NCBI RefSeq assembly: GCF_001697225.1
Contig: NZ_CP014671.1
Coordinates: 2,542,001 to 2,606,000 of the forward strand
Direction: 5' to 3'
DNA: 64,000 bases
From: Immundisolibacter cernigliae
Lineage (GTDB): Bacteria; Pseudomonadota; Gammaproteobacteria; Immundisolibacterales; Immundisolibacteraceae
How positions within the stretch are numbered: position 1 is the stretch's first letter; each line of letters starts with the position of its first letter. The notes below the pieces were generated by a model that saw nothing but the letters and a program-made list of their open reading frames with translations, did no database searches and was not told where the DNA came from. Shown here one piece after another: positions 5,629 through 49,392 of the stretch. Position numbers and translations under genes: made by a program.

Positions 5629-5657
5629 CGTTTACCCTCCCCAGGGTGATGGAAGTG

Positions 5658-5671
5658 ACCGATCGATCGGT
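5658..5671. promoter_or_regulatory. 14-bp perfect palindrome, possible operator
   Basis: ACCGATCGATCGGT lies 30-43 bp upstream of the DUF1302 start codon, between it and the HpaB-like gene. Perfect short palindromes at this distance are typical of TetR-type operators. No TetR gene is in the window, so the regulator is unknown. Confidence 0.4.
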
Positions 5672-5697
5672 TTATTTCACACTAGATGAACGCGGGT

Positions 5698-5721
5698 CAA
5701 CCTGACTCCAAGTCAAGGTTG
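5698..5721. repeat. Inverted repeat after the HpaB-like gene
   Basis: On the minus strand the sequence reads CAACCTTGACT, TGG, AGTCAGGTTG. The two arms are inverted copies differing by a single extra T. It sits just after the HpaB-like stop codon and about 70 bp before the DUF1302 start. There is no U-run, so it is either an operator (MerR-like spacing is possible) or an mRNA stem-loop between two operon genes. Confidence 0.45.
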
Positions 5722-5736
5722 CCTGCGGTGCGATGT

Positions 5737-33004: not shown

Positions 33005-34807
33005 ATGAAATTACGCAAGAACGTCACACAGCCGACCAGCACGGGTCGTTACTGGCTGGCCGCAGCGGCACTCGCCGCAGCCGGTAGCGCTGCCCAGGCC
33101 GCCAATTTTCAGTTGTTCGATGGTGCGGTCGAGGGCTCCTTCGACACCACGCTGGGCTACGGCCTGCAGCTGCGGACCGAGAAAATGGACCCGTCTTTGA
33201 GCATTCCCCATCCCAGCCGCTGGGCGCCGGGCCAGACCGAGGCCGGGCTGCTGCTTGGCAACAATCAGTACGGCAATCGGGAGCTGTTCAACAAGAAGTG
33301 GGATATTTTCTCCAACCTGGTCAAGGCTTCGCATGACCTGCAGGTGAATGGCGACGGCTGGAGCGCGTTCATGCGCGGCAATTACTTCTACGACTTCGCC
33401 ATGGCCAGCGAGAGGGACAGCATTCCGAAGGAATCGGAAAACCGCGCGATCATGCATGGCGACATCACCGACGCCTATTTCCTGACCCGGCTCGGCAGCG
33501 CGGACCAGTTCACGGTGCGCTTGGGCAAGCAAGTCATTTCCTGGGGCGAGAACACCTTCATCGGTCAGTCGCTCAACGACATCAATACGGTAGACATCAG
33601 CAAGTTGCGCCAGCCGGGCGTCGAGCTCAAGGACGCGTTGGTCGGTACACCGGCGGCGTATTTCAGTTGGCAGATGAGTGAGGCGCTGTCGCTCGAGACC
33701 TTCGTGCTGCTCGGGTATGACGAGCTGAAGGTCGATCCCTACGGTGGTTTCTTCGGCACCCAAGACGCCATCACCGACGGCGGCGGCTTTGCCAACGAAT
33801 TTGGTGTCCCGTTCGATCTTTGTCGGGCGCCTGACGGCGGCACCTGTAACCTGGCGCTCGGCCCAGCCCAGGTGCCGCGATGGGGCGACGACATTCCATC
33901 ATACGGGGGGCAGTATGGCGTAGCGCTGCGTTACTACGCGCCAAATCTGGGCAATGGTTTCGACTTCGGGCTCTACTACCAGAATCTGCATGATCACAAC
34001 CCGCAGTTGTCTTCGTACGCGGGCCCGACTGCTAATGCCGGCGGGCGTATAGGGACCTACTTCGTCGACTACGCCAAGGATGTCGAACGCTACGGCTTCA
34101 GTTTCAACACGACTCTCGGTTCGTGGGCGGTGGGTGGCGAGTACAGCTACCGGCGCAATGCACCGCTGCAAGGCACGGACTTCCTCGCGGTCGCCGCGAC
34201 AGGTCGGGAACTGGGCCCAACGGGGGCACCCAACGGCACGCTCTACGCGCCAGGGACCAAATACGAGGGCTTCGAGCGCTACAAGCGGCATCAGATTCAG
34301 CTGACTGGCCAGCGTCTGTGGGGGCCCATGCCCATGCTGATGGGCGCCGACCAATGGAACACCATCGGCGAAGTGGCCTACGGCTGGGCAGAGGACATGC
34401 CGGGTCACGACCTGAATGGCCATGAAATAACTCCGACCGTGCTGGCCTCGAAGAACGGGTTCGTTCGGTTTGACGATGTGACCAACCACTTCTGGGGCTT
34501 GGTGGCCCGCTCGACGCTCACCTACAACAATATCCTGTTCAACCGTATCAACATGGACTTCAACACCGCCTTTAAGTGGGACGTAGAGGGCGTGTCGCCG
34601 GAGTTCGGTGGTGCGACGCTGTTCATTGGCGGTCGCAAGCAATTGTCGGTCGGTGTGACCTTCGACTATGCGTTGAATTGGAAGCTGGGTATCAACCAGA
34701 CCTTCATCTTCGACGGCGATAACGACCAGTGGCGTCCGAACGGCAGCCGCCCGGTCAACAACACCGACCGCGACTTCCTGTCGCTGGACCTAAGTTACTC
34801 GTTCTGA
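33005..34807 (+). CDS. DUF1302 outer-membrane beta-barrel protein (module B)
   Basis: A 600-residue DUF1302 protein with a signal peptide ending in AGSAAQA. The family core NKKWDIFSN, NYFYDFAM, KQVISWGENTFIGQSLNDI and NTVDISKLRQPG are present. The C-terminus LSLDLSYSF ends in Phe with alternating hydrophobics, a typical outer-membrane assembly signal. The paralogue at 42605 shares these motifs and is 64 residues shorter. It is the first gene of a plus-strand module with two DUF1329 genes, a YCF48-like gene and an RND gene. Likely role: outer-membrane passage of a hydrophobic compound, by inference. Confidence 0.88.
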   Translation: MKLRKNVTQPTSTGRYWLAAAALAAAGSAAQAANFQLFDGAVEGSFDTTLGYGLQLRTEKMDPSLSIPHPSRWAPGQTEAGLLLGNNQYGNRELFNKKWDIFSNLVKASHDLQVNGDGWSAFMRGNYFYDFAMASERDSIPKESENRAIMHGDITDAYFLTRLGSADQFTVRLGKQVISWGENTFIGQSLNDINTVDISKLRQPGVELKDALVGTPAAYFSWQMSEALSLETFVLLGYDELKVDPYGGFFGTQDAITDGGGFANEFGVPFDLCRAPDGGTCNLALGPAQVPRWGDDIPSYGGQYGVALRYYAPNLGNGFDFGLYYQNLHDHNPQLSSYAGPTANAGGRIGTYFVDYAKDVERYGFSFNTTLGSWAVGGEYSYRRNAPLQGTDFLAVAATGRELGPTGAPNGTLYAPGTKYEGFERYKRHQIQLTGQRLWGPMPMLMGADQWNTIGEVAYGWAEDMPGHDLNGHEITPTVLASKNGFVRFDDVTNHFWGLVARSTLTYNNILFNRINMDFNTAFKWDVEGVSPEFGGATLFIGGRKQLSVGVTFDYALNWKLGINQTFIFDGDNDQWRPNGSRPVNNTDRDFLSLDLSYSF

Positions 34808-34818
34808 TGCACCGACGT

Positions 34819-34852
34819 GGGCCGGTGTTTGGGATTGACACCGGCCCTTTTT
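34819..34852 (+). terminator. Intrinsic terminator inside the module, after DUF1302
   Basis: A perfect 10-bp stem (GGGCCGGTGT / ACACCGGCCC) with a 9-nt loop is followed by TTTTTC. It lies between the DUF1302 stop and the DUF1329 start. It probably causes partial termination and so a higher level of the beta-barrel transcript than of downstream genes. Confidence 0.85.
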
Positions 34853-34873
34853 CTTCATGATTCGGGGGAAGCC

Positions 34874-36310
34874 ATGCAAGGGGTGAAATGGGCGGCGAGC
34901 CTGGCGCTTGCCGTGGGGTGTACGGGTGTGCCGCTGATGGCGAGTGCCAAGGTGTCGCCGGAAGAAGCAGCCAAGCTCGGCATCGAAGGCACCGAGTTGA
35001 CGCCGATGGGCGCGATCCGCGCCGGTAATGCCGATGGCAGCATTCCCGCCTGGGATGGCGGCATCAAGACGCCGCCTGTGGGCTATACCCAGGGTGGCTG
35101 GTATATTGATCCCTATGCGGACGACAAGATTCTGTTCACCATCACGGCGCAGAACCACGAGCAGTACAAGGACAGGCTGTCAGCCGGTCAGATCGCGATG
35201 CTGAAAAAGTACCCGGACAGCTACAAGCTGAACGTGTACCCGACGCGGCGCAGCGCGTCGTATCCGAAGGAAATCTACGAGAACAGCATCTGGAACGCCA
35301 CCAACACTGAGTTCTGCAACCCATCACTTGGTAAGGATCGGGAGGAGCGTTGCGTCAAACGCGAGGTCTATCGCCCAGGCATCTTCTTCCCAATACCGAA
35401 AACCGGCGGTGAGGCCATGTGGAACCATACCTATTACTGGTTCGGCAAGTACTACACTGTCACGCATTATGGCTTCAACGCGTTCGCCGATGGCACCTAT
35501 GCCGAATTCGCCACCCGCGAGCGGTGGATCGTGCCCGCTGCCATGAATCCGGATGAGATACCGAAGGGCGATGTGTTCACCCGTAATGGTGGAGCGGCCT
35601 GGTGCTTCTCGCAGGAAACCCTGGCGCCGCCGCGCAACGCGGGCAGCATTTTCGGTGGCTGCAACTATTTCGAGACCACCGACTTCGATGCCTACCTGTA
35701 CGTGCCCGGCCAGCGCCGAGTGCGCAAGGCTCCGGAAATTGGCTTCTATGACAGCCCGAGTTCCAACTCGGACGGCCTGCGCACTGCCGACTCAAAGTAC
35801 ATGGGCGCCATGACCGGTGACGTGGAATGGTACACGTGGACGGCCGAGCGAAAGGAGATGTTCGTACCGTACAACGCGTACAAAATGGCGCAGCCGGGCA
35901 TCAGCATGAAGGACATCGTGCGGCCGGGGCACATCAATTCGGACCTCGTACGTTACGAACTGCACCGGGTGTGGGCCATCGAGGGCAAGATCAAGCCAGG
36001 ATTTCGGCATCTGTCGCCACACCGAGTCACTTACATAGACGAAGACAGCTGGGCCGGCGTAGCATCTGACATGTACGATGCACAGGACAACCTGTGGCGC
36101 GTGTCCGAGGGCTATTTGCTTAATTACTACGACGTTCCGACCGTTCATCATTTTGCCGACGATCATTCCGACCTGATCAACGGCAGGCATGCTTCCAATG
36201 CCGGCTGGCCGAATATCAGCGGCAATCCGGGTGACTTGATCAATTATCACGTCATGCCGGATCCCGATGTTCAGACGCCCGCTGGATTGCGCAAATATGG
36301 CATGCGCTGA
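34874..36310 (+). CDS. DUF1329 periplasmic protein (module B, first copy)
   Basis: A 478-residue DUF1329 protein. The start at 34874 (MQGVKWAASLALAVGCTG) opens a signal peptide cleaved near LMASA-KVSPEE. Conserved blocks shared with three paralogues here are RAGNADGSIPAWDGG, LFTITAQN, YPTRRSASYP, GQRRVRKAPEIGFYDSP, RYELHRVW and the C-terminal PAGLRKYGMR. It has several Cys (CNP, RCVKRE, WCFS, GGCNYF) that could form disulfides in the periplasm. It follows the terminator at 34819 and is 89 bp before a close paralogue. A lipid- or ligand-carrier role is inferred from the family fold. Confidence 0.87.
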   Translation: MQGVKWAASLALAVGCTGVPLMASAKVSPEEAAKLGIEGTELTPMGAIRAGNADGSIPAWDGGIKTPPVGYTQGGWYIDPYADDKILFTITAQNHEQYKDRLSAGQIAMLKKYPDSYKLNVYPTRRSASYPKEIYENSIWNATNTEFCNPSLGKDREERCVKREVYRPGIFFPIPKTGGEAMWNHTYYWFGKYYTVTHYGFNAFADGTYAEFATRERWIVPAAMNPDEIPKGDVFTRNGGAAWCFSQETLAPPRNAGSIFGGCNYFETTDFDAYLYVPGQRRVRKAPEIGFYDSPSSNSDGLRTADSKYMGAMTGDVEWYTWTAERKEMFVPYNAYKMAQPGISMKDIVRPGHINSDLVRYELHRVWAIEGKIKPGFRHLSPHRVTYIDEDSWAGVASDMYDAQDNLWRVSEGYLLNYYDVPTVHHFADDHSDLINGRHASNAGWPNISGNPGDLINYHVMPDPDVQTPAGLRKYGMR

Positions 36311-36399
36311 CGGTACCGGTTCTCTATATCGCTCAGGCTTTGACTGGGCGCCGGTGTCGGGCTTCAGGAAATGACTTCAAACCTTTTTGAGTGATTGTT

Positions 36400-37851
36400 A
36401 TGCAAAACTTACCGATCATCGCCGGCCTTGCCTTTGTCGGAGCTGCGGCGCTCTTTGCCGGGTCGGCTGTCGCCAAGGTATCGCCTGAGGAAGCGGCGAA
36501 GCTGGGCCTTGAGGGGACGGAGTTGACGCCAGTCGGCGCCATCCGCGCCGGCAACGCCGACGGCAGCATTCCGGCCTGGGATGGCGGCATAAAGGCGCCG
36601 CCGGCCGGTTATGAAGAGGGCAAGTGGTACGTGGATCCCTACAAGGACGATCAGGTTCTGTTCACCATCACGGCGCAGAACTATCAGCAGTACGAGGACA
36701 AATTGTCCGCTGGCACCATTGCCATGCTCAAGAAATACCCGGATACGTTCAAGATGAACGTCTATCCAAGTCGTCGCAGTGCCTCTTTCCCGCAGTGGCT
36801 GTACGACGGCTCTATCTGGAATGCCGCCAACACCGATTGGTGCAACCCGCCTCCGGGTGGACCCAACACTGCCCAGCGCTGCGTGAAACAGGAGGTCTTT
36901 CGCCCGGGTGTGCCGTTTCCCATTCCCAAGGATGGCGGGGAGCTGATGTACAACCACACGTTCTACTTCTTCGGCAAGTGGTTCACGTCGGTTGCGTATG
37001 GCTTCAACGCATTTCCGGATGGCGCCTACGCCGAGCATGTAAAGCGCGAGCGTTGGTTGGTGCCGATGTATTTGGTCGGGGATGAAAAACCCAAGGGCGA
37101 AGTGTTCGACCGCAAGGGCGGTGCGGCGTGGTGCTTCTCGCAGGAAGATCTTGCGCCGCCGCGCACGGCCGGGACCATGTTCAGCGGCTGCAACTATTTC
37201 GAATCGGTCGACTTCGAAGCCTACCTGTACGTGCCCGGCCAGCGCCGGGTCCGCAAGGCTCCGGAAATCGGCTTTTACGACAGCCCGGGCACAGGTTCGG
37301 ACGGTCTGCGAACCGCCGATGCGCGCAACCTGTTCGCGCAGACCGGTGGCGAGGAGTGGTACGACTGGTCGCCACCGGTGCGCAAGGAGATGTATATCCC
37401 CTACAACAGCTACAAGCTGGCCGATCCGCAATACACCTTCAAGGACATCGTGCGCAAGGGCCACGTCAACTCGGACATCAAGCGCTACGAACTGCACCGG
37501 GTATGGGTCATCGAGGGCAAGCTGAAGCCGGGATTCCGCCATCTTGGCCCGCATCGCCTGGTGTACGTGGACGAGGACAGCTGGGCGGCGGCGCTGTCCG
37601 ACATGTACGATGCGCAGGGCAACCTGTGGCGCGTGTCGGAGGCCTATCTGCTCAATTATTACAATGTGCCGATGGTGCACTGGTGGGGAGACGACCACTC
37701 CGATCTGGTCTCCGGCCGCCATGCAGGCGTCAACGGCTATTTCAACCACGGCGCCAAGCTCGGCACCTTCCCGCCGGATTTTTCGCCTTCCGGCAAGCCT
37801 GATCCGGACCTGATGACGCCGGCTGGTCTACGTAAGTACGGCGTCCGTTAA
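36400..37851 (+). CDS. DUF1329 periplasmic protein (module B, second copy)
   Basis: A 483-residue DUF1329 protein that closely parallels its upstream neighbour. The start at 36400 (MQNLPIIAGLAFVGAAALFA) opens a signal peptide cleaved after AVA; an in-frame GTG at 36391 is the alternative. Shared blocks include KVSPEEAAKLG, RAGNADGSIPAWDGG, YNHTFYFFGKWFT, EIGFYDSPG and C-terminal PAGLRKYGVR. The two tandem copies may have split roles or simply raise dosage. It is followed by a strong terminator at 37984, before the YCF48-like gene. Confidence 0.87.
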   Translation: MQNLPIIAGLAFVGAAALFAGSAVAKVSPEEAAKLGLEGTELTPVGAIRAGNADGSIPAWDGGIKAPPAGYEEGKWYVDPYKDDQVLFTITAQNYQQYEDKLSAGTIAMLKKYPDTFKMNVYPSRRSASFPQWLYDGSIWNAANTDWCNPPPGGPNTAQRCVKQEVFRPGVPFPIPKDGGELMYNHTFYFFGKWFTSVAYGFNAFPDGAYAEHVKRERWLVPMYLVGDEKPKGEVFDRKGGAAWCFSQEDLAPPRTAGTMFSGCNYFESVDFEAYLYVPGQRRVRKAPEIGFYDSPGTGSDGLRTADARNLFAQTGGEEWYDWSPPVRKEMYIPYNSYKLADPQYTFKDIVRKGHVNSDIKRYELHRVWVIEGKLKPGFRHLGPHRLVYVDEDSWAAALSDMYDAQGNLWRVSEAYLLNYYNVPMVHWWGDDHSDLVSGRHAGVNGYFNHGAKLGTFPPDFSPSGKPDPDLMTPAGLRKYGVR

Positions 37852-37983
37852 GAGTCGAGTTGTTGAGTAGCCGTGTAGCGCCTTATATGCACTACATGGG
37901 TGAGGTTCCTGGTGTTCGCCGCAGATGCCAGGGGGCCGCACCGCAGAACGTAACATCACTTCGCGATACAGCGAATAGCGACA

Positions 37984-38009
37984 GCCCCCTTCACTGGGGG
38001 CATTTTTTT
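37984..38009 (+). terminator. Rho-independent terminator after the second DUF1329 gene
   Basis: Stem GCCCCC / GGGGGC with loop TTCACT and tail ATTTTTTT. It separates the porin/DUF1329 part of module B from the YCF48-like and RND genes, 22 bp before the YCF48-like start region. Confidence 0.88.
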
Positions 38010-38031
38010 CCTTATGTGATAGGGGGATAAG

Positions 38032-38793
38032 GTGCCAGGAAGAATTCATCGCAATGTTGCGTTGCGACTTCGCGCCCTGCTCGCGATGCTCATGCTCGCT
38101 TCGGTTTCGATGCTCGCCGCTCCCACGCGCGCCGAGGAATCCCATCCCGCGGCAACCGGCCGCAACGTCGCGCGTGCATTACTGCTGGACGCCACGCGAG
38201 CGGGCGAGCGCATCGTCGCAGTGGGTGAACGGGGCATCGTCCTTTATTCGGACGACGAGGGAGCGACTTGGAAGCAGGCCGCTGTTCCGGTCGATCCGAC
38301 TCTTACCGCCGTGACCTTTGTCGATGCGCAGCATGGCTGGGCCACAGGGCATGACGCGACCATATTGGCCACCGTGGACGGGGGACTGACGTGGGTTAAA
38401 CAGTTCAGCGACCCGGAGCTGGACGTGCCGCTGCTGGCTTTGTACTTCGAGGATCTGCGCACGGGATTTGCTGTCGGCGGCCGGGGCAATTTCTTTCGCA
38501 CCACGGACGGCGGGGCGACGTGGAGCAATGAGGTCATTCTGACCCGTGATGAGTTCGATGGTCACCTGTTCGGGATTGGTAAGGCCGCTTCCGGGAGCCT
38601 TTTCATGGCATCCGAGCAAGGCGTGCTGTTCCGGTCGGATGATGCGGGAGCGACCTGGCTACAGCTTGATAGCCCATATAACGGCTCATTTTTCGGCGTT
38701 TCCTTCCATGGTCCTCGCATCCTGGCCTACGGAATGCGCGGCCATGTCGCGGTCAGCGACGATAATGGTGCGTCGTGGCGCATGGTGCCTACC
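38032..38793 (+). pseudogene. YCF48-like beta-propeller gene, 5' part, cut by an IS element
   Basis: The first 254 codons of a secreted YCF48-family (photosystem II assembly factor-like) beta-propeller. A signal peptide ends near AAPTRAEE, followed by repeats such as YSDDEGATWKQ, ATVDGGLTWVKQ, FRTTDGGATWSN and FRSDDAGATWLQ. The reading continues to WRMVPT at 38793, where an IS481-family element begins; read-through into the IS would stop at 38925. The 3' part resumes in frame at 39880. Joining the two gives 328 residues, close to the 319-residue intact paralogue at 45851, so the insertion is recent. Confidence 0.9.
38788..38793. repeat. Target site duplication (left), CCTACC
   Basis: The 6-bp CCTACC abuts the left end of the IS and recurs at 39874-39879. 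It matches the NCTAGN preference known for Bordetella IS481 at five of six positions (counting the free N positions). Confidence 0.85.
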
Positions 38794-39760
38794 TGTCACG
38801 TCCCGGCCGATTATTTGGCCTTCGATGAAACAGCTCCGGTTTTGAAGCGTACCAGTGCTGAAGCGCTTGAGCCGGAGTCTGGGCGTTCAGTGCCTTCTGC
38901 GGCAAGTGGTGGTTGTAGAGCGTGACATAGCGGTGCAGGGTCTGCTCCAGGTCCTCGCTGGACCTGAAGTGGTGCGTGCGCAGCAGGTCCGCGATGCGCC
39001 CGTTGAAGCGCTCGACCATGCCATTGGTCTGCGGGTGGCGCGGGGGCGTCAGACGGTGCTCGATGCCCAGTTCCTGGCACAGGCGATCGAACTCATGCGT
39101 CCCGGTCGGGGCCCGCGCCCGGCTCCCGAACAGCCGGTCCGTGAACTCGGTGCCGTTGTCGGTGAGCAGGCGCGTGATGCGCACCGGGCAGGCCGTGGCC
39201 AGGGCACTGAGGAAGGCGCGCGCCGAGCGCGCGCTCTTGTCGGCTTTCAGGGCCACGTAAACCCAGCGGGTGGCCCGATCGATGGCCACGAACAGGAACC
39301 GGCGCCGGTCCTCGTCGGCCATCTGCGGCAGGTACTTCACGTCGACGTGCACAAAGCCGGGCACGTAGGTCTTGAAGGTCTTGCTGACCGCTTTGTCCGG
39401 CGCCGGGCGCAGGGCGCGCAGGTTGCCCACGCCGTGGCGGCGCAGGCAGCGGTCCAGCCCGGAGCGGGACACGTCCGGACACAGGAACTCGCGCGTCACC
39501 GCCAGCAGGTCGTCCAGCGGCAGCAGCAGGGCCCGGCGCAGGTAGACCACGATCGCCTCCTGGCCGGGGGTCAACGTCGTTTGCAGGCGGTGCGCGGTGT
39601 GCGGCCGGTCGTAGACATCCGGGCGCCGCTTCCATTTGTAGATCGTCGGCTCGGTGACGCCAAAGCGGCGGGCCAGCACCGCCACCGGCTCATCACTGGC
39701 CGCGATCTGCGCCCGCACGTGGGGCGTGGTGCGGGCTTGTTTGTGCAGTGCAATCAGCAT
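38789..39760 (-). CDS. IS481 family transposase
   Basis: A 323-residue DDE transposase. An N-terminal helix-turn-helix (RFGVTEPTIYKWKRR) is followed by the integrase core: HVDVKYLPQ (first Asp), LTDNGTEFTD (second Asp) and HPQTNGMVERFNGR (Glu). The C-terminus ends LFHRRPNNRPGRDR. The stop codon (TAG, complement of 38789-38791) lies in the target duplication, outside the IS, so the target DNA supplies the end of the gene. The frame is intact, so the element may be active. It is transcribed against the host gene. Confidence 0.92.
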   Translation of the reverse strand: MLIALHKQARTTPHVRAQIAASDEPVAVLARRFGVTEPTIYKWKRRPDVYDRPHTAHRLQTTLTPGQEAIVVYLRRALLLPLDDLLAVTREFLCPDVSRSGLDRCLRRHGVGNLRALRPAPDKAVSKTFKTYVPGFVHVDVKYLPQMADEDRRRFLFVAIDRATRWVYVALKADKSARSARAFLSALATACPVRITRLLTDNGTEFTDRLFGSRARAPTGTHEFDRLCQELGIEHRLTPPRHPQTNGMVERFNGRIADLLRTHHFRSSEDLEQTLHRYVTLYNHHLPQKALNAQTPAQALQHWYASKPELFHRRPNNRPGRDR

Positions 39761-39873
39761 GCGGACACCTCCCGATCAACCGCTTTCCCGTCCCCTGCCA
39801 GCTCCCGGAACACCTCGCGCGCCAGCAGCAGCGGGGACCGAGACGGAACTATATGATGATCCGGGATGGAACA
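38794..39873 (-). mobile_element. IS481 family insertion sequence, 1080 bp
   Basis: The ends are imperfect inverted repeats starting TGT: left TGTCACGTCCCGG (38794 on) and right, complemented, TGTTCCATCCCGG (from 39873). They match at 16 of 25 positions. The element is flanked by the direct repeat CCTACC and carries one transposase gene. Removing it with one copy of the repeat restores the YCF48-like reading frame exactly (VPT-GTDKS), which fixes both boundaries. Confidence 0.92.
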
Positions 39874-39879
39874 CCTACC
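39874..39879. repeat. Target site duplication (right), CCTACC
   Basis: Second copy of the 6-bp repeat flanking the IS. The host reading frame resumes with the next base (GGC ACG GAC). Confidence 0.85.
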
Positions 39880-40104
39880 GGCACGGACAAGTCCCTTATG
39901 TCCGCCACGGTTACGGCGGATGGCGTACTGGTACTGGCGGGGCTGGACGGTGCGATTGTCACCACGCGCGACGGCGGTGAAACGTTTGCGCTCGCGCCCC
40001 AGGAGGATCGGCGCAAGATTGCACGTCTGTTACCGACACGGGACGGTGCGTGGCTGGCGTTTGGCGAGAACGGCGTCAACCGCCTGACGCTCGAAGTCAA
40101 ATAA
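39880..40104 (+). pseudogene. YCF48-like beta-propeller gene, 3' part after the IS
   Basis: The last 74 codons and stop of the disrupted YCF48-like gene. GTDKSLMSATVTADGVLVLA aligns with GTQQFLFDGVVLPDGALLLV of the intact paralogue, and a final propeller blade reads VTTRDGGETFALAP. Without the IS it would be translated in frame with 38032-38793. A separate in-frame ATG at 39900 exists, but a signal-less fragment is unlikely to work. Confidence 0.88.
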
Positions 40105-40138
40105 GTCATCGCCCTCTATTACGGTTTTCGGAGGAGAA

Positions 40139-42514
40139 ATGTTAACGTCCAATTATGCGTCCGGCATGGCCCGTGTTTCGGCATGGCTGGCCGATGCGCT
40201 GATTCGTCATCGGGTCATGATTCTCGTCGTGCTGGGTTTGATCACTGCTTTCCTCGGTTATCACGCCTCTTTTCTGCGGATGGACCCCGGCTTCACCAAG
40301 TCCATCCCGCTGGGTCATCCGTACATGCAGACTTATAGCAAGTACACTGACCAATTCGGCGGCGCAAACGTCATCATCGTCGCCTTGATGCAGAAGGAAG
40401 GCGATATATTCAACGTTGATTTCTTCAAAACGCTTGAAACGGCGACCCAGGACGTTCTGTTCATAAAGGGCGTTGACCGATCCTCCGTCACCTCGTTGTT
40501 CACGCCCAACGTGGACTATGTACTGGTGAATGAGGAGGGCTTTGTCGGCCATCGTGTGGTTGAGCCGGATTTTCAGCCCAATCAGGAAAGCATCGAGCAG
40601 GTGCGGCGCAATCTGCTGGTCTCGCAGCACGTCGGGCGCCTCGTGTCTCATGATTTTCGCGGCGCCCTGATCCGTGCCGAGCTGGTAGACAAAGACCCCG
40701 CTACCGGCAAACCATTGGACTACACAGAAGTTGCGGCCGCGCTGGAGCAAATTCGCGCCCGCTACGCCAGCGATACCGTCGAGGTAAGAATCATCGGCTT
40801 CGCCAAGTTCATCGACGATGTCATCAATGGCGCGCTTGGGGTGTTGCTGTTCTTTGTCGTGGCGGTGTTGGTCACCGCCATAATGTTGTATTTCTATTCG
40901 AATTCGCTGCAAATCACCGTTTTGGCGATTCTGGTTGCGGTGACGGCGGTGGTGTGGCAACTGGGCCTGGTGCGTCTGCTGGGCTACGGCATCGATCCCT
41001 TGTCGATATTGGTCCCGTTTCTCATTCTGGCGATTGGGGTCAGCCACGCCATCCAGATGACGAATACATGGAAGCTGGAAATTCTCGGCGGGGCTACCGC
41101 GCGCCAGGCCGCCCGCGAGGCCTTCAACAAGTTGTTCATTCCGGGTACCACCGCCTTGCTGGCCAATGCAGTGGGTTTCGCCGTGATCATGGTTATCGAC
41201 ATCGACATCATTCAGGAGCTTGGTATAACAGCCAGCATTGGTGTTGCGGTGATGGTCGCGACGAACAAGTTCATGCTGCCGGTGCTGCTGTCCTACGCCA
41301 GCATGAGCCCGCGCACGGTTGAGCGCATCCGGGCGCGGGTTCTGGTTCAGGAAAAGCCCTTCTTTCGCTTTCTCGCAAGCTTCGCCGACCGCAAGAAGGG
41401 GTCGGTAGTTATCCTGGTTTCCATCGTCTTGCTTGGGTTCGGCTGGTGGAAGTGGCAGTCTCTGGTGATCGGTGATAGCGAAGCCGGCGCGCCGGAATTC
41501 TGGCCGGAGGCGCGCTATAACCAGGATATTAAGGCAATCATCAATAACTTTCGGGTCGGAATCGACGAGTTGACGGTCATCGCGGAGATGCCGCGTGACG
41601 GTTGCACGACCTACGGGATGATGAAGACGATTGATCGATTTGTGTGGCACGTTGGAAATGTTGAAGGTGTCCAGTCGGTGGCCTCGCTGTCGTCGGTGAT
41701 GCGCGACCGCAACATTGGCAACAACGAAGGCCATATCAAGTTCGCCGAGCTTCCGCGCACGGCGGCGGGCCTCGGCTCGGCGATGCGCAACATTGAACTG
41801 AACCAGAAGCTGTTCAACGACACCTGCGAGGCGATCCCGATTCGCGTGTTCCTGTGGGACCACAAAGCACCAACGCTGACTCGGGTAGTCGAGGCGATCG
41901 AGGAATTTGAACAGCCTGCTGAGGGAGACGGCGCCAAAGTGTCGTTCAGGCTTGCGTCCGGGCCGGCGGGCGTGATGGCGGCAACTAACGAGGCTGTGGA
42001 ACGGGCCGAACTGACCATGATGGGAGCCCTTTTTGTGGCGGTGGGCATCTTGTGCTATTTGACCTTCCTGTCGTGGCGCGCTTCGCTGTGCATCCTGTTG
42101 CCGCTGGCGTTGGTTTCCATTCTCGCCAACGCGGTGATGGTTCTGCTGAACATCGGGCTGAAGGTGTCGACACTACCCGTGGTGGCGCTTGGCGTCGGCG
42201 TAGGTGTGGATTACGGCATCTATCTGTTTGCCCGCACGCAGGCCCACATCCGCAACGGCCTGTCCCTGAAGGATGCTTACTATGAGGGTCTCAAGCAGGC
42301 CGGCACTGCCGTTATCTTCACCGCCAGCACCATGTCGATTGGCGTTGCGACCTGGTTCTTCTCCGATCTGAAGTTCCAGTCGGACATGGGCGTGCTTTTG
42401 GCCTACATGTTCTTCGTCAACATGGTCGGTGCGGTGTTGTTGTTGCCGGCGTTGGCGGCATGGCTGATCGACGTCGAGAAAGAGCGGGTGTCGACACGCG
42501 GGCTGTCGCACTGA
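40139..42514 (+). CDS. MMPL/HAE3-type RND superfamily transporter (module B, intact)
   Basis: A 791-residue inner-membrane RND protein with two similar halves. TM1 lies at about 26-45, a periplasmic loop runs to about 230, TM2-6 lie at about 232-390, TM7 at about 419-440, a second loop to about 620, then TM8-12. It belongs to the MMPL/hopanoid-transporter-like group rather than AcrB-type pumps. In the second half, VDYGIYLFAR (Asp691-Tyr692) matches the proton-relay pair of MmpL proteins; at the same place in the first half the residues are Ser302-His303 (GVSHAIQM). A strong GGAGGAG precedes the ATG. No membrane-fusion protein or TolC is adjacent. Confidence 0.88.
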   Translation: MLTSNYASGMARVSAWLADALIRHRVMILVVLGLITAFLGYHASFLRMDPGFTKSIPLGHPYMQTYSKYTDQFGGANVIIVALMQKEGDIFNVDFFKTLETATQDVLFIKGVDRSSVTSLFTPNVDYVLVNEEGFVGHRVVEPDFQPNQESIEQVRRNLLVSQHVGRLVSHDFRGALIRAELVDKDPATGKPLDYTEVAAALEQIRARYASDTVEVRIIGFAKFIDDVINGALGVLLFFVVAVLVTAIMLYFYSNSLQITVLAILVAVTAVVWQLGLVRLLGYGIDPLSILVPFLILAIGVSHAIQMTNTWKLEILGGATARQAAREAFNKLFIPGTTALLANAVGFAVIMVIDIDIIQELGITASIGVAVMVATNKFMLPVLLSYASMSPRTVERIRARVLVQEKPFFRFLASFADRKKGSVVILVSIVLLGFGWWKWQSLVIGDSEAGAPEFWPEARYNQDIKAIINNFRVGIDELTVIAEMPRDGCTTYGMMKTIDRFVWHVGNVEGVQSVASLSSVMRDRNIGNNEGHIKFAELPRTAAGLGSAMRNIELNQKLFNDTCEAIPIRVFLWDHKAPTLTRVVEAIEEFEQPAEGDGAKVSFRLASGPAGVMAATNEAVERAELTMMGALFVAVGILCYLTFLSWRASLCILLPLALVSILANAVMVLLNIGLKVSTLPVVALGVGVGVDYGIYLFARTQAHIRNGLSLKDAYYEGLKQAGTAVIFTASTMSIGVATWFFSDLKFQSDMGVLLAYMFFVNMVGAVLLLPALAAWLIDVEKERVSTRGLSH

Positions 42515-42604: not shown

Positions 42605-44215
42605 ATGACCAAGCGCATGCAATTACGCACAGCGATTGCGGCCGCTGCGGCGGGCTTGATTTCGGGCCCGGCGCTGGCGGTGGATTTCAAGATCGGCGAA
42701 CTGGAGGCCGCGTTCGATACCGACCTCACTTGGGGTCTTTCGATGCGCACGGCAAAGCCCGATCCGCTCAATCAGGGCGTTTATGGCAATCGCTACCTGT
42801 TCCAGGACAAGTGGGACATTTTTTCCAACGCCATCAAGGGCTCGCATACCCTGGAGGTCAAGGGCGACAGCTATGGCGCCCTGGCACGGGGCAACTGGTT
42901 CTACGATTTCGAGATGGCGAATCAGAATCTTCCAAAAGCCTCTGAAAATCGCGCCAAGCAGCACGGTGACATCACCGATGCGTATGTTTACAAGCACCTG
43001 CTGCCTGACCAGAACCTGTCGGTCCGTCTGGGCAAGCAGGTGATTTCCTGGGGTGAAAGCACCTTCATCGGCCAGGCGCTGTCGGACATCAATACGGTCG
43101 ACATCTCCAAGCTGCGCACGCCGGGCTCCGACCTGAAGGACGCCTTCCTGGGCACGCCTGCCATCGATATTGCGTATACCTTCGCCGACAACTACACGCT
43201 CGAAGGCTTCTACCTGTTCGGGTACGACGAGATCAAGGTCGATCCGATGGGCGCCTTTTTCGCCACCCTGGACGCCATCGCGGACGGTGGCGGTTTTGCC
43301 AACGCGGTGGTCGGCGGGAGGCCGCGTTGTCTGGCGCCTGACGGCGTGGCCTGCGATCTGCTGGGCGGCGGTCTCGTGAGGAGCGGGGACGACATTCCTT
43401 CCTACGGCGGGCAATGGGGTCTTGCATTCAGGGTGTTTCTGCCCAATTTCGGCAACGGTGGCGAGGTCGGCCTTTATTACCAGAACCTGCACGACCACCT
43501 GCCCATGTTGTCGGCGACGCGCAATGTAGCTGGGCCGGGCGGGCGTTTTTTCATTGAATACCCGGAGAATATCGAGCGCTTCGGCGTCTCGTTCAACACC
43601 AATCTTTCCGGTGTCGCGCTCAGTGGCGAATATTCGTGGCGGCGAAATGCGCCGATTCAGCTGCTCGGGCCGCTGCTGCAGGGGGCTGGCATAGCTCCTG
43701 GCTTGGCGCCCGGCGCCAGCGTCAGAGGCTATGAGCGAATCGAGCGCCATCAGGCACAGTTCAGTGTCAACAAGAACTGGGGCGTGACGCAGTGGCTGAA
43801 GGCGGACGCCAACGCCACGGTGGCGGAGCTCATGTGGGGCTGGATCGGCGGGCTTCCGGATTCCTCAGCTCTGTTCGAACCGGACATCAGCAAGGACTTC
43901 GGCAAGCTGGTGGTTCGCCACGCACTGACCTACAACGCAGCCCTGTTCAATCTGATCGCACTGGAGCCGAGCGTGGCGTTTAGCTGGGATATCCACGGAT
44001 TTTCCAACGAGCTGGGCGCGGCCAAGCTGGTGGTGGACGACCGCAAGGCGATCACCGTGGGTCTTGGCTTCCTGTATGGCGGCGGCAAGTGGACCGGCAA
44101 CATCAGTTACACGAATTTCTTCGGTCCGCAAAACGATTTCAATAGGGCGGCCAGCCGCTACAACGGCACTGACGATCGGGACTTCCTGTCGTTCAACGCG
44201 AGCTACTCGTTCTGA
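42605..44215 (+). CDS. DUF1302 outer-membrane beta-barrel protein (module C)
   Basis: A 536-residue DUF1302 protein with a signal peptide ending LISGPALA. It parallels the module B copy: QDKWDIFSNAIKGSH, NWFYDFEMA, KQVISWGESTFIGQALSDI, NTVDISKLRTPG, and C-terminal LSFNASYSF with terminal Phe. It starts 90 bp after the module B RND gene with AGGAGGG upstream, and is followed in 27 bp by a DUF1329 gene. Its composition is more GC-rich than the module B equivalent. Confidence 0.88.
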   Translation: MTKRMQLRTAIAAAAAGLISGPALAVDFKIGELEAAFDTDLTWGLSMRTAKPDPLNQGVYGNRYLFQDKWDIFSNAIKGSHTLEVKGDSYGALARGNWFYDFEMANQNLPKASENRAKQHGDITDAYVYKHLLPDQNLSVRLGKQVISWGESTFIGQALSDINTVDISKLRTPGSDLKDAFLGTPAIDIAYTFADNYTLEGFYLFGYDEIKVDPMGAFFATLDAIADGGGFANAVVGGRPRCLAPDGVACDLLGGGLVRSGDDIPSYGGQWGLAFRVFLPNFGNGGEVGLYYQNLHDHLPMLSATRNVAGPGGRFFIEYPENIERFGVSFNTNLSGVALSGEYSWRRNAPIQLLGPLLQGAGIAPGLAPGASVRGYERIERHQAQFSVNKNWGVTQWLKADANATVAELMWGWIGGLPDSSALFEPDISKDFGKLVVRHALTYNAALFNLIALEPSVAFSWDIHGFSNELGAAKLVVDDRKAITVGLGFLYGGGKWTGNISYTNFFGPQNDFNRAASRYNGTDDRDFLSFNASYSF

Positions 44216-44242
44216 ACGGGCGCCGGGTTCATTCTGGAGGAT

Positions 44243-45706
44243 ATGAAGATGTTCTTTTTCAACGGTAGCCGTTGCGTGGTCGTTGCGGCACTGGCCGGAC
44301 TGTCGATGGCAGGTGCGGCCAACGCCAAGCTGAGCGACGAGGAAATCGCCCAGCTCGGCATGACCGGCACGCCGCTGACGCCGGTCGGCGCCACCCGTGC
44401 CGGCAACGCCGCCGGCACCATTCCGGAGTGGACCGGCGGGATTCAGGCGCCGCCGGCCAATTTCAAGCCGGGCGCGGGCTGGGCCGACCCCTTTGCGGAC
44501 GACAAGCCGCTGTTCACCATCACCGCGCAGAACTACCAGCAGTACGAGAAGAATCTGCTGCCGGGCCAGATTGCCATGTTCAAGCAGTATCCGGACAGTT
44601 TCCGGATGCACGTCTACCCGACCCGGCGCAGCACGTCCTATCCGGACTGGTTCGTCGAAAGCACCAAGGTTCAGGCCAAGCATATCGACATCTGCCCGCA
44701 GTACGCGCAGAAGAACGAAATGTGCCTGATCGATGCGCAGCCCGGCGGTGGGGTGCCGTTTCCCATTCCCAAGAGTCCCGAGGAGGCTGGCTGGAACACC
44801 CTGCTCGGGCACTACAACGGCACGACCATGGACGCCATGGGCAACGGCGCGCTGATCGATTCGCTGGGCAATCGCACCGACGTGATCATCCGCTCGCGCG
44901 AGTTCTGGCCGTACCAGCTGCCGGCCGACAAGCGGCCGTCGAACGAGTGGTTCACGCAGTGGGGCGGCGCGTTCCTGTGCGATTCGTGGCAGATCGAGCA
45001 GCCGCCGCGCTCCTCGGGGCTGGTGTTTGGCGGCTGCATGTACGCGCAGAACGTCGATTTTCAGGTCTACCTCTACATCCCCGGCCAGCGACGTGTGCGC
45101 AAGGCGCCTGAGATTGGTTTCCACGACAGTCCTTCCTTCGGCTCGGATGGCCAGCGCACGGTGTCCTCGCGCTGGATGTGGTGGTTCGGCGGCAAGGAGC
45201 CGCGCCACAGCTACAAGCTCGAGAAAGGCAAGGAGCTTTTCGTGTCGGCCAATTCGTACAAGATTGCCGATCCGAACCTGAACTACGACGACATCTATGG
45301 CAAGAAGCACATCAATCAGGACTTGCTGCGCTACGAGCTGCACCGCATGTGGGTGATCGACGGCGAGCTCAAGCCGGGCTACCGCCACCTCTACAAGCGC
45401 CACGTGGCGTATTTCGACGAGGACACCTGGATGGGCGTGGCCTTCGAGGCCTACGACGCCAAGGACCGGCTATGGCGCATGGGCGAACAGCACGTGCTGA
45501 ACCTGTATGACAAGCCCCTTCTGCGCATCATGGGCGACTCGCAGATCGATCTGATCAACGGGCGTTACACCACCTACCCGTACTGGCACGACACCGCAGG
45601 CCGGCTGACCGGTTTCGGGCCGCCGAAGTTCGAGACCACCGAGGACATGACCGTCGACATCTCCGTCTACACGCCGCAGGGATTGCGCAAGTTCGGTACG
45701 CGTTGA
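44243..45706 (+). CDS. DUF1329 periplasmic protein (module C, first copy)
   Basis: A 487-residue DUF1329 protein. The signal peptide ends MAGAANA, before KLSDEEIAQLGMTG. Conserved blocks are PVGATRAGNAAGTIPEWTGG, LFTITAQNYQQYE, YPTRRSTSYPDWF, GQRRVRKAPEIGFHDSP, RYELHRMW and C-terminal PQGLRKFGTR. It shares with 49393 the segments PLTPVGA and SFGSDGQRTVSSRW, which the module B copies lack, so the two module C proteins are closer to each other. The partner DUF1302 gene is 27 bp upstream. Confidence 0.87.
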   Translation: MKMFFFNGSRCVVVAALAGLSMAGAANAKLSDEEIAQLGMTGTPLTPVGATRAGNAAGTIPEWTGGIQAPPANFKPGAGWADPFADDKPLFTITAQNYQQYEKNLLPGQIAMFKQYPDSFRMHVYPTRRSTSYPDWFVESTKVQAKHIDICPQYAQKNEMCLIDAQPGGGVPFPIPKSPEEAGWNTLLGHYNGTTMDAMGNGALIDSLGNRTDVIIRSREFWPYQLPADKRPSNEWFTQWGGAFLCDSWQIEQPPRSSGLVFGGCMYAQNVDFQVYLYIPGQRRVRKAPEIGFHDSPSFGSDGQRTVSSRWMWWFGGKEPRHSYKLEKGKELFVSANSYKIADPNLNYDDIYGKKHINQDLLRYELHRMWVIDGELKPGYRHLYKRHVAYFDEDTWMGVAFEAYDAKDRLWRMGEQHVLNLYDKPLLRIMGDSQIDLINGRYTTYPYWHDTAGRLTGFGPPKFETTEDMTVDISVYTPQGLRKFGTR

Positions 45707-45757
45707 TTTCCACGCCCTGCGGCGGTCGTGCCGCGCAGGGCCGTACATAAACCCACC

Positions 45758-45791
45758 AGACACCCTGCGGTTCAGCAGAGCCGCAGGGTGT
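45758..45791 (+). repeat. Perfect 12-bp stem-loop after the DUF1329 gene
   Basis: GACACCCTGCGG, a 10-nt loop and CCGCAGGGTGTC, 51 bp after the DUF1329 stop and 60 bp before the YCF48-like gene. There is only a short T pair after it, so it is a weak terminator or an mRNA stabiliser. It takes the place of the strong terminator at 37984 in module B. Confidence 0.7.
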
Positions 45792-45850
45792 CTTGGTCAG
45801 ACGCCGATGCCGGAGCGCTCGGCGCCCGAGATGAGCTTCGAGAGGGATAA

Positions 45851-46810
45851 ATGTTCGTTCGACTCGCCAGTTTCCTGCTGGCTTTTTTATGCCTGACGGC
45901 CTCGGCACGGGCCGATGTGACGCCGCAATCGGCGTTGAAGGTGCCCCTGGCGCCGCGGGTGGTGTTTCTGGGGCTGGCGAGCGCCGGCGAACGGGTGATC
46001 GCGGTCGGCGAGCGGGGCGTGATCATCCGCTCCGATGATCGGGGCGCCAGTTGGGTGCAGTCGGACGTGCCGGTGCGGGCCACGCTGACGGCGGTGAGCT
46101 TCGTCGATGCCCAGACCGGTTTCGCGGTCGGGCACGATGCGGTGGTGCTCAAGACCACCGACGGCGGGGCGAGCTGGACGCTGCTCAACTTCGAGCCCGA
46201 TTCGCAGGTGGTGCTGCTGAACGTGCGCTTTCGCGACGCCCGCAGCGGTTACGTGGTCGGCAGCAACGGCCAGCTGTGGAGTACGCAGGATGCCGGGGCC
46301 AACTGGCAGCGCACCACGCTGTCCGTGGAGGACTGGTACCAGAACCACGTTTTCGACATCGCCTGGGCGGCGGACGGGGCAACCCTGGCGGTGGCCGAGA
46401 AGGGCGTGCTGTACCGCTCCGCCGACGGCGTCGCGCCGTTCGAGGCGATCGACTCTCCCTACGAGGGATCGTTCTTCGGGGCGCTGAGACTGCCCGACGG
46501 GCGCCTGCTCATCTACGGCATGAACGGTCATGCCTTCGTGTCGGCAGACGGCGGGCTCGCCTGGCAGCGGGTCGATACCGGTACGCAGCAGTTCCTGTTC
46601 GACGGTGTGGTGCTGCCGGACGGTGCGCTGCTGCTCGTCGGCGGCGGCGGCACGCTGGTGCGCCTGGCCCCGCACACCCTGGAGGCATCGGTAAAGCAGC
46701 TCGTCGAGCGCGCCGGCATCACCGCGGTGTTGCCGGCGGGTGATGCGGTGTACCTGGCCACCGAGGCCGGCGGCGTACAGCGCAGACCGCTTGCCGGGCA
46801 GTTCGACTGA
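45851..46810 (+). CDS. YCF48-like beta-propeller protein (module C, intact)
   Basis: A 319-residue secreted protein. The signal peptide MFVRLASFLLAFLCLTASARA precedes a series of YCF48/BNR-like blades: IRSDDRGASWVQ, LKTTDGGASWTL, WSTQDAGANWQR, FVSADGGLAWQR. YCF48-like propellers are usually periplasmic or lumenal assembly scaffolds that bind other proteins. It is the only intact copy of this component in the two full modules, because its module B paralogue carries an IS. It has several Asp-rich turns but no catalytic motif. It may bind or assemble the barrel, DUF1329 and RND parts; this is inference. Confidence 0.85.
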   Translation: MFVRLASFLLAFLCLTASARADVTPQSALKVPLAPRVVFLGLASAGERVIAVGERGVIIRSDDRGASWVQSDVPVRATLTAVSFVDAQTGFAVGHDAVVLKTTDGGASWTLLNFEPDSQVVLLNVRFRDARSGYVVGSNGQLWSTQDAGANWQRTTLSVEDWYQNHVFDIAWAADGATLAVAEKGVLYRSADGVAPFEAIDSPYEGSFFGALRLPDGRLLIYGMNGHAFVSADGGLAWQRVDTGTQQFLFDGVVLPDGALLLVGGGGTLVRLAPHTLEASVKQLVERAGITAVLPAGDAVYLATEAGGVQRRPLAGQFD

Positions 46811-46916
46811 GAGCTTGTGACATTCAAGCTCTCAGCCCGGCCAGGGATGGGCGGGAGCGAGTCCGGGCATGTGCCGGACTCGCGACAGAAGAAATGCACA
46901 GGACGTGCATTTCTTC
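46811..46916. repeat. Three consecutive perfect stem-loops
   Basis: Hairpin 1 at 46811-46831 (GAGCTTG / CAAGCTC, 7 bp), hairpin 2 at 46857-46883 (GCGAGTCCGG / CCGGACTCGC, 10 bp) and hairpin 3 at 46888-46916 (GAAGAAATGCAC / GTGCATTTCTTC, 12 bp) fill the gap between the YCF48-like stop and the RND start. No long U-run follows. They may be a REP-like cluster, an mRNA processing or stability element, or a regulatory leader of the RND gene. Confidence 0.75.
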
Positions 46917-46978
46917 ACAAACTCTGATCCGCCGCCCCCTGCGACGGCCCTCAACGCGATTTCAGGACGATCGATTCC

Positions 46979-48385
46979 ATGGCTGCAGACCTGGGTTACG
47001 GCGCCGGACTTGAGCGCTTCTCGGCGAAGATTTCCAACTTTCTGGTAGGCCAGCGCGTGCTGGTACTCAGCGTCATGCTGGCGCTGACGGCATTGCTCGG
47101 CTACGAGGCGTTGATGCAGCGCCTCGACCCCGGCTTCGACAAGTCGGTGCCGCTGTCGCACCCGTACATGAAGACCTATATCGACTACAAGCCGGAGTTC
47201 GGCGGCTCGAACACCATTACCGTGTTCGTGCAGGACCGCAGCGGCGACATGTTCAATCCGGCCTTCTTCAAGGTGCTGGAGCAGGTGACGCAGGACATCC
47301 TGGTCATGGATGGCGTCGATGCCCGTACGGTGACCTCGCTGTTCACGCCGAACGTGAACTACGTGGCGGTGACCGAGGAAGGCTTCACAGGCTCACGCAT
47401 CGTGCCGGCCGATTTCGAGGCGACCGAGGAGGGCCTCGAGCGGGTAAGGCAAAACCTGTACCGGTCCGACGAGATCGGCCGCACCGTGGCCAAGGATTTT
47501 TCCGGTGCGCTGGTGATCGCCGAGCTGGTCGAGCGCGATCCGGCCACCGGCGTCAAGCTCGACTACCAGCAGGTCGCCGAACGCCTGGAGCAGCTGCGCG
47601 ACAAGTACGAGTCGCAGGCTGTCGACATCGGCATCATCGGTTTTGCCACCTTCATTGGTGACATCATCGACGGCGCGCGGGGCGTCATTGTGTTCTTCGC
47701 CATCACGCTGGCGGTCACCTTCGTGCTGCTGGTGTTCTTCGCCGGCTCCTGGAAGCTGGCCGTGGCGGCAATCGCGGTTTCGCTGACGGCCGTGGCCTGG
47801 CAGCTGGGGCTGGTCAAGCTGCTCGGGTACGGCGTGGACCCGCTGTCCATCCTGGTGCCGTTCCTGGTGCTCGCCATCGGCGTCAGTCATGCGGTGCAGA
47901 TGACCAATGCCTGGCGCCTGGGCATTCTGTCGGGGATGGACAGCCCGGCGGCGGCGAAGGATGCGTTCAACAAGCTGTTCATTCCGGGCGCCACGGCCCT
48001 GGTGTCGGATGCGGTCGGCTTCGCCGTGATCATGATCATCGACATCGACATCATCCGCGAGCTGGGCATCACGGCCAGCATCGGTGTCGGCGTGATGCTG
48101 CTGACCAACAAGTTCATGCTGCCGGCGATCCTGTCGTACCTGAGTTTGAACGAGCGTGAGCTGGCCCGCGCCCGTCGCGGTTCGGAGGGGGCGGACCATC
48201 CGTTCTGGAATCTGCTGGCCCGCTCCAGCCGGCCGCTGCCGGCGGCCGTCATCGTTGTGCTGAGCCTGGGGCTGGTGGCGTACGGGGCATCGAAGTCGAA
48301 CGACCTGGTCATTGGCGACTCCGAGGCTGGTGCCCCGAGTTCTGGCCCGATGCGCGCTACAACCGCGACATCGACAAGATCGTGA
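46979..48385 (+). CDS. MMPL/HAE3-type RND protein, N-terminal part (module C, frameshifted)
   Basis: A 468-codon frame holding TM1, the first periplasmic loop and TM2-7 of an RND protein paralogous to 40139-42514. Homology runs to DSEAGAP (about 48336) and then ends in an unrelated 16-residue tail. The paralogue continues EFWPEARYNQD; here the same sense appears in the next frame. One base is missing around 48335-48337 (CCCCGAG where CCGGAG is expected). Adding one base gives a 789-residue protein, against 791 for the paralogue. It has the SH pair (GVSHAVQM) but not the DY pair. Confidence 0.85.
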   Translation: MAADLGYGAGLERFSAKISNFLVGQRVLVLSVMLALTALLGYEALMQRLDPGFDKSVPLSHPYMKTYIDYKPEFGGSNTITVFVQDRSGDMFNPAFFKVLEQVTQDILVMDGVDARTVTSLFTPNVNYVAVTEEGFTGSRIVPADFEATEEGLERVRQNLYRSDEIGRTVAKDFSGALVIAELVERDPATGVKLDYQQVAERLEQLRDKYESQAVDIGIIGFATFIGDIIDGARGVIVFFAITLAVTFVLLVFFAGSWKLAVAAIAVSLTAVAWQLGLVKLLGYGVDPLSILVPFLVLAIGVSHAVQMTNAWRLGILSGMDSPAAAKDAFNKLFIPGATALVSDAVGFAVIMIIDIDIIRELGITASIGVGVMLLTNKFMLPAILSYLSLNERELARARRGSEGADHPFWNLLARSSRPLPAAVIVVLSLGLVAYGASKSNDLVIGDSEAGAPSSGPMRATTATSTRS

Positions 48386-49347: not shown

Positions 49348-49392
49348 GCGGTCGCCGGCTCGGATTCCAGACAAACGGAAGGAGGGGGAGTC

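Follow-up and report, generated by a model that had tools for sequence, protein, structure and literature searches.

AmeABCD of Castellaniella defragrans is a system of four parts: a DUF1302 protein, a DUF1329 protein, a YCF48-type protein (COG4447) and AmeD, an HAE3-type pump of the resistance-nodulation-division (RND) superfamily with 787 amino acids. Export of hydrophobic compounds has been reported for it, deletion of ameABCD lowers monoterpene tolerance, and its authors noted a conserved composition and organisation across the lineage (PMC6394551). A stretch of 64,000 nucleotides from the genome of Immundisolibacter cernigliae (the window; all coordinates refer to it) carries cassettes of the same four parts, a likeness drawn from the published description, but it has two of them in tandem and extra DUF1329 genes. 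Here, we describe the RND protein of the first cassette, 791 amino acids in length, and the residues found where other RND pumps have their proton relay.

AcrB is reported to have the acids D407 and D408 on transmembrane helix 4 (TM4) and K940 on TM10; for SecDF, the same source gives a TM4 Asp that is essential, with a Tyr and an Arg on TM10 and TM11, respectively (PMC8277102). MmpL3 is described with two cross-pairs, Asp256-Tyr646 and Asp645-Tyr257 (PMC10466384; its Asp-Tyr dyads are also described in PMC6463170), Ptch1 with two Asp on TM4 and one Glu on TM10 (PMC9949057) and human Dispatched1 with three conserved Asp in TM4 and TM10 (PMC8630017). Asp256, Asp344 and Asp407 have been called conserved across MmpL3, HpnN and AcrB (PMC10466384), and MmpL7 is described as having neither Asp-Tyr pair (PMC8427324).

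The relay site of the pump

The 791-residue protein matches the Pfam MMPL family (PF03176) with 94.2 bits against a cut-off of 20.5, which places it in the RND superfamily. Its top NCBIfam match is the HAE3 model TIGR00921 with 154.5 bits; since this is below the curated cut-off of 351.9, we call the protein HAE3/COG1033-like only. Two NCBIfam HpnN models score far below their cut-offs (77.5 versus 751.85 and 33.2 versus 1100). The AlphaFold2 model (predicted local distance difference test score 91.4) has the helix and strand order of the RND fold, with two six-helix repeats and two periplasmic porter regions. Foldseek returned MmpL4 as the top match (E 2.5e-26), with MmpL5 and MmpL3 also among the top matches, and VIA-align 2 gave Z values of 41-43 to Ptch1, NCR1, AdeB, AcrB, SecDF and MmpL chains; the structure matches cover about residues 5-786 and include chains of Patched, NPC1-type, HpnN, SecDF and AcrB-type proteins. 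The predicted fold is thus that of an ordinary RND protein.

An earlier note on this DNA had pointed to an asymmetry between the two halves of the protein, with Asp691-Tyr692 in the second half and Ser302-His303 at the matching place of the first. This asymmetry is real and the numbering exact: all codons were re-read, and S302, H303, Q306, D691, Y692 and Y695 are invariant in two alignments (A1, n=10; A2, n=67). The gene and its relevant codons are:

40139 to 42514, plus strand: RND/MMPL transporter gene (AmeD-like) of cassette 1, an open reading frame of 791 amino acids, identified with PF03176, AlphaFold2 and structure searches
40994 to 40996, plus strand: Asp286, directly ahead of the TM4 helix
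41042 to 41047, plus strand: Ser302-His303, in the middle of TM4 (AlphaFold2 helix 287-316)
41054 to 41056, plus strand: Gln306, in TM4
41165 to 41167, plus strand: Asn343, in TM5
42209 to 42214, plus strand: Asp691-Tyr692, in the middle of TM10 (AlphaFold2 helix 679-705)
42221 to 42223, plus strand: Tyr695, in TM10

Correspondences to AcrB and MmpL3, numbered as in the literature, come from an ungapped register set by a conserved glycine and its flanks. In this register, S302 would stand at the position of AcrB D407 and MmpL3 D256, H303 at that of AcrB D408 and MmpL3 Y257, and Gln306 and Tyr695 at the MmpL3 gate positions Phe260 and Phe649. The earlier note had conceded that its case would fall if other TM4 acids filled the role, and residues 290-312 of the protein contain neither Asp nor Glu.

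The site resembles several described relays, each in part. It shares the TM10 Asp-Tyr with MmpL3 (HAE2), but MmpL3 has Asp-Tyr also on TM4, where our protein has Ser302-His303, so that the MmpL3-type relay of two pairs is absent. Likewise absent is the HAE1-type relay of Asp-Asp on TM4 and Lys on TM10; with AcrB the protein has in common the RND fold and, assuming that the residues face each other, an acid on one repeat opposite a base on the other, but the sides are exchanged, with the His on TM4 and the acid on TM10. HpnN (5khn) has, in a phmmer alignment, Asp-Phe on TM4 (we take this Asp to be the D344 of PMC10466384) and Ala-Phe on TM10. It is thus alike in being a single-acid site, and phmmer alignments also give it the same TM4 Gln and TM10 Tyr one turn on, but it is the mirror image of our protein, with the acid on TM4. 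Judged by these comparisons, asymmetry is ordinary among RND pumps; what stands out is an acid on TM10 alone together with a conserved TM4 His. We found no description of a TM4 His replacing the RND acid in the open-access literature, most of which was judged by title or abstract, and this is weak evidence of absence.

Another conceivable reading is that the two halves were exchanged by circular permutation, the acid-bearing C-terminal half being the ancestral N-terminal half. Some alignments point that way: in phmmer, the C-terminal half is matched with the first half of the chain in AcrB-type proteins and in several MmpL proteins; the HAE1 paralogues L006-L008 (L numbers are our handles for relatives) score higher with the C-half profile in their first half; and in three of 43 comparison rows (L043, L044 and L176), one of the profiles has a crossed preference. 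In the remaining 40 of these 43 rows, each of the two half profiles scores highest on its own half (N on N, C on C), so the order of the halves is collinear and a permutation, already disfavoured, is most improbable. The 43 rows include L052, discussed below, and rows with Gly-His on TM4; HAE1-type rows were set aside, and one further row matched in one half only.

Distribution and history of the relay residues

Relatives were gathered by a peptide-pattern scan and by profile and protein searches of whole genomes, and part of the matches were fetched and aligned; all counts refer to these fetched matches. The collecting hidden Markov model was made from SH-type proteins, which centres the sampling on that type, and one of the two scan patterns was G[VI]GVDYGI, so that DY was partly preselected in the scan. 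After removing rows with an identical central stretch or with less than 640 amino acids, 337 distinct rows of 375 remained, of which 336 were counted, leaving out L046 (HAE1-type).

At scores of 800 bits or more there are 170 distinct relatives, and all of them carry SH..Q / DY..Y; the signature is therefore more than chance. An earlier set, reduced from 222 to 201 rows by dropping duplicates, gave the same picture at that threshold: 79 rows came from the pattern scan and 79 from the profile and protein searches, the latter not selected by motif, and every one of them has the full signature.

Among the 336 rows, 267 have both His303 and Gln306, and only three have one of the two without the other (L052, L368 and L370). 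Residue 302 of the 267 rows is mostly Ser (239), otherwise Gly (20), Arg (5), Cys (1), Asn (1) or Ala (1), and none has an acid at 302 or 303; a search for an acid at 302 across all 336 rows found none either. In the second half, residue 691 is Asp in 264, Asn in two and a gap in one, residue 692 Tyr in 255, Phe in 11 and a gap in one, and residue 695 Tyr in 266 with one gap. TM4 residues 291-311 are free of Asp and Glu in 226 of the 267 rows; the acids of the other 41 are at position 309 (37 rows), 300 (3) or 305 (1), and position 309 is nearly two helical turns away from His303. The lineage includes Pseudomonadota as well as genomes, mostly metagenome-assembled, that are labelled Desulfuromonadales, Nitrospirota, Verrucomicrobia and Nitrospinota. 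Five relatives (L286, L289, L292, L295 and L339) have Arg302 beside His303, which puts a base where AcrB has D407.

The other 69 rows, mainly COG1033-type proteins, share Asp691 (67 rows) and differ around it: His306 is found in 65, His695 in 67, and residue 303 is Asp in 45, Tyr in 10, Glu in 6, Asn in 4, His in 2, Val in 1 and Met in 1, with Asp, Glu or Asn thus in 55. In a few remote rows, the residue aligned to column 303 is not certain (L176 has Leu in one alignment and Met in another). The earlier note had measured the protein against MmpL3, which is not the nearest yardstick: the COG1033-type relatives have their TM4 acid at 303, the AcrB D408 position. Because they carry it there, no row is acidic at 302 and D691 is already the acid that the relatives have in common, the change in the lineage is, from the alignment, an acid-to-His replacement at 303. 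Along with it, His306 changed to Gln, His695 to Tyr and Thr343 to Asp or Asn, and an Asp or Glu newly appeared at 286. Residue 286 is acidic in 258 of the 267 rows (Asn or Ser in the other nine) and in one of the 69 (L052); at residue 343, Asp occurs in 191 of the 267 rows and Asn in 47 (the Immundisolibacter protein among these 47), against Thr in 67 of the 69. The clade-specific positions are 302, 303, 306, 339, 343, 695 and 739, plus 286.

On a tree of 110 rows, calculated with a mixture model and with the motif columns removed, the His303 label changes twice (shuffled mean 33.4); on a FastTree tree of all 336 rows, the His303+Gln306 label changes three times (shuffled mean 63.4). Both trees carry a warning of long branches meeting. 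The distribution fits one origin of His303+Gln306 and two losses, with the caveat that an unrooted tree cannot separate gain from loss. The two losses, L052 and L380, fall inside the lineage but were counted with the 69 comparison rows, and they are the only ones of the 69 that lack D691: both have neither His303 nor D691. This joint loss suggests, from two cases only, that His303 and D691 work as a pair. L052 (G004, 4497-6749) and L380 (G916) are open RND frames and possibly relay-dead paralogues comparable to MmpL7. L368 and L370 have His303 with His306 kept and are placed elsewhere on the tree; their His303 probably has a separate origin.

The second cassette of the window encodes a paralogue with the same motifs, in two parts:

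46979 to 48385, plus strand: N-terminal part of the paralogous RND gene of cassette 2, with GVSHAVQ; the frame is broken near 48.33 kb
48382 to 49347, plus strand: C-terminal part in another frame, with GVDYGIY

The earlier note read these parts as a pair of genes. The motifs are as it described, but the parts lie in different frames that overlap near 48.33-48.38 kb, and the gene is a single open frame in both congeneric genomes searched (L048 with 806 amino acids and L049 with 794); it is one gene split by a frameshift in the I. cernigliae genome, not two genes. A sequencing error could be the cause. A degenerate gene as the source of the asymmetry is ruled out, as the motif is kept in open genes of many genomes; the frameshift is limited to the paralogue and absent from both congeners.

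A proposed rewired relay and its alternatives

With due caution, we lean towards reading the proton site of this inner-membrane RND subunit of an Ame-type cassette as a form of the RND relay with a single acid and a His. A rewired relay is the most economical reading because coordinated changes surround the relay site. By homology to the MmpL3 cross-pairs, Tyr257-Asp645 would have become a His303-Asp691 dyad and Asp256-Tyr646 a contact between the non-acidic partners Ser302 and Tyr692. Protons would be bound and released at His303-Asp691, between the two six-helix repeats; protonation would switch the repeats, as proposed for other RND pumps, and the motions of the repeats would drive the porter domains. 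The acids added in the lineage, D/E286 at the end of TM4 and, in most members, D343 in TM5, may aid proton entry.

The same acids allow another reading, namely that Asp343 or Asp286 has become the carboxylate of the first half and that the relay is still one of two acids. Both arise in the very lineage that lost the TM4 acid. However, residue 343 is Asn in the Immundisolibacter protein and Asn, Ala, Leu, Thr or Gly in 75 of the 267 rows (Glu in one), and residue 286 lies ahead of the TM4 helix, 17 residues before H303, which is far for a direct partner, and is not acidic throughout. We regard this reading as unlikely.

The pump might also not be driven by protons at all, but use another ion or serve as a passive or chaperone-coupled lipid conduit, with the TM10 acid being structural. 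There are precedents: MmpL7 is said to use an unidentified coupling (PMC8427324), simulations of Ptch1 point to cation binding at an anionic triad (PMC9949057), and the two lineage members L052 and L380 have lost both H303 and D691. Against this, the titratable residues H303, D691 and Y692 are near-invariant over very wide divergence, which suggests that they serve chemistry and not packing alone. Accumulation of Nile Red in the AmeABCD study required the protonophore carbonyl cyanide m-chlorophenyl hydrazone (CCCP), in both wild type and mutant (PMC6394551); this result shows that efflux in the cell is proton-driven, without pointing to AmeD in particular. A pump without proton coupling appears rather less probable still than a relay of two acids.

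A more serious alternative is that nothing is mechanistically special: asymmetric RND pumps are common, and a single acid on either helix may be enough for ordinary coupling. AcrB and SecDF (PMC8277102) as well as HpnN, in the phmmer alignment, are known asymmetric pumps, and position 691 holds the acid shared by most COG1033 comparison rows, while 303 varies among D, E, N, Y and H. Several observations of our own also weigh against a rewired relay. The TM4 acid is missing outside the lineage too, in nine Tyr303 rows and two rows with His303 and His306, so that its absence does not imply a special mechanism; D691 is not strictly universal, with Asn691 in L298 and L361; and Asp343 is missing in the Immundisolibacter protein and in 76 of the 267 rows. 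On the other side, Tyr695 varies in none of the 267 rows (apart from the one gap) and His303 and Gln306 are hardly ever found apart, as if a specific set of residues had been selected and the site not merely freed of acid. Ordinary coupling is possible, but in our view falls short of being likely. The idea that loss of the TM4 acid is unique to the His303+Gln306 lineage was dropped when the wider sampling brought up these eleven rows; the nine of COG1033 type, with Ala-Tyr on TM4 and Asp on TM10, are L367, L369, L371, L372, L375, L377, L379, L382 and L383.

For the rewired relay, a changed coupling or stoichiometry is plausible. The earlier note had argued that the coupling stoichiometry or the mechanism differs in this RND subgroup; of this, the lineage-wide asymmetry with its coordinated changes holds, but it is the direction of the asymmetry that is special and not the asymmetry itself. 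A more detailed proposal is tentative: the TM4 His and the TM10 Asp might form a charge-relay dyad, the only titratable pair of the core in many members, with a pKa like that of histidine, gating by periplasmic pH and probably a single proton per cycle. If true, this would be an inverted His/Asp relay unlike the TM4-carboxylate relays described for AcrB, SecDF, HpnN, MmpL3 and Ptch1.

The Ame-type cassettes

The window has the adjacent DUF1302, DUF1329, YCF48-type and RND genes of an AmeABCD-type cassette twice in tandem, in the order DUF1302-DUF1329-DUF1329-YCF48-RND (33005-42514) and DUF1302-DUF1329-YCF48-RND-DUF1329 (42605-50826); a congener, G001, has the same gene order (L048 for the last gene). 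Apart from the RND genes, the members are:

33005 to 34807, plus strand: DUF1302 gene (AmeA-type outer-membrane protein) of cassette 1, PF06980 with 462.1 bits
34817 to 36310, plus strand: DUF1329 gene (AmeB-type) of cassette 1, PF07044 with 338.5 bits
36391 to 37851, plus strand: second DUF1329 gene of cassette 1, genome match 2578664-2579746
38032 to 38925, plus strand: YCF48/BNR protein gene (AmeC-type) of cassette 1, 297 residues; homology to the congener G001 ends at residue 254
42605 to 44215, plus strand: DUF1302 gene of cassette 2, PF06980 with 408.4 bits
44243 to 45706, plus strand: DUF1329 gene of cassette 2, PF07044 with 318.4 bits
45851 to 46810, plus strand: YCF48/BNR protein gene of cassette 2, PF14870 with 68.8 bits
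49393 to 50826, plus strand: DUF1329 gene after the second RND gene, genome match 2591654-2592715

The YCF48 and RND genes of cassette 1 are separated by a transposase-type open reading frame (rve integrase core; 38789-39760, minus strand). The YCF48 gene looks truncated by this insertion, its homology to G001 stopping about where the transposase-type frame begins. Each tandem cassette thus has one damaged part, YCF48 in the first and RND in the second, and both together might supply a full set. The source genome (G000, 3.24 Mb) has 13 DUF1329 matches, several of them as neighbouring pairs.

The link to DUF1302/DUF1329 loci that the earlier note had drawn is borne out by the relatives. Among 83 loci with flanks of at least 4 kb, drawn from 175 loci scoring at least 800 bits (some of which cover the same place), all three partner genes are found within 10 kb of the RND gene in 65; DUF1302 is found in 68, DUF1329 in 67 and YCF48 in 78. 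In a distant clade, DUF1302 and DUF1329 at first seemed to be missing (0 of 15 loci, in phmmer searches with queries from the window), but this was an artefact of sensitivity: of five loci searched with Pfam models, four (L055, L186, L197 and L201) have DUF1302 accompanied by DUF1329 or LolA_like genes, and in the fifth, L198, neither of the two neighbouring genes tested with Pfam models was DUF1302 or DUF1329/LolA_like. At L201 (4775-9332, minus strand), a Gly-His variant of TM4 adjoins LolA_like and DUF1302 genes; in this single Gly-His locus examined, His signature and cassette partners go together beyond the core group. By its predicted parts, the cassette is one of Ame-type envelope transport: a DUF1302 outer-membrane protein, a LolA-like DUF1329 protein, a YCF48-type protein and the RND pump.

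Published work ties such cassettes to growth on monoterpenes (PMC6394551), and PMC13101534 cites reports that tie them to phenanthrene and benzene: there, a cluster of DUF1329, YCF48 and MMPL genes is described as strongly expressed in an enrichment that degrades benzene, and deleting a Delftia DUF1329 gene is reported to impair growth on phenanthrene. An understanding of the relay would give a first mechanistic handle on these widespread and little-studied DUF1302/DUF1329/YCF48/RND cassettes. How many protons an RND cycle uses is described as under debate, AcrB included, for which the number is linked to the two TM4 carboxylates (PMC8277102). The lineage is a natural experiment on this number, as its His303+Gln306 proteins have kept the TM10 acid and are non-acidic at both central positions of TM4, and direct residue swaps are suggested by those relatives that have Asp, Glu, Asn or Tyr at 303. 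The conserved residues suggest that these bacterial membrane pumps, which form a large family with links to the handling of oily compounds, may have rewired their use of the proton gradient.

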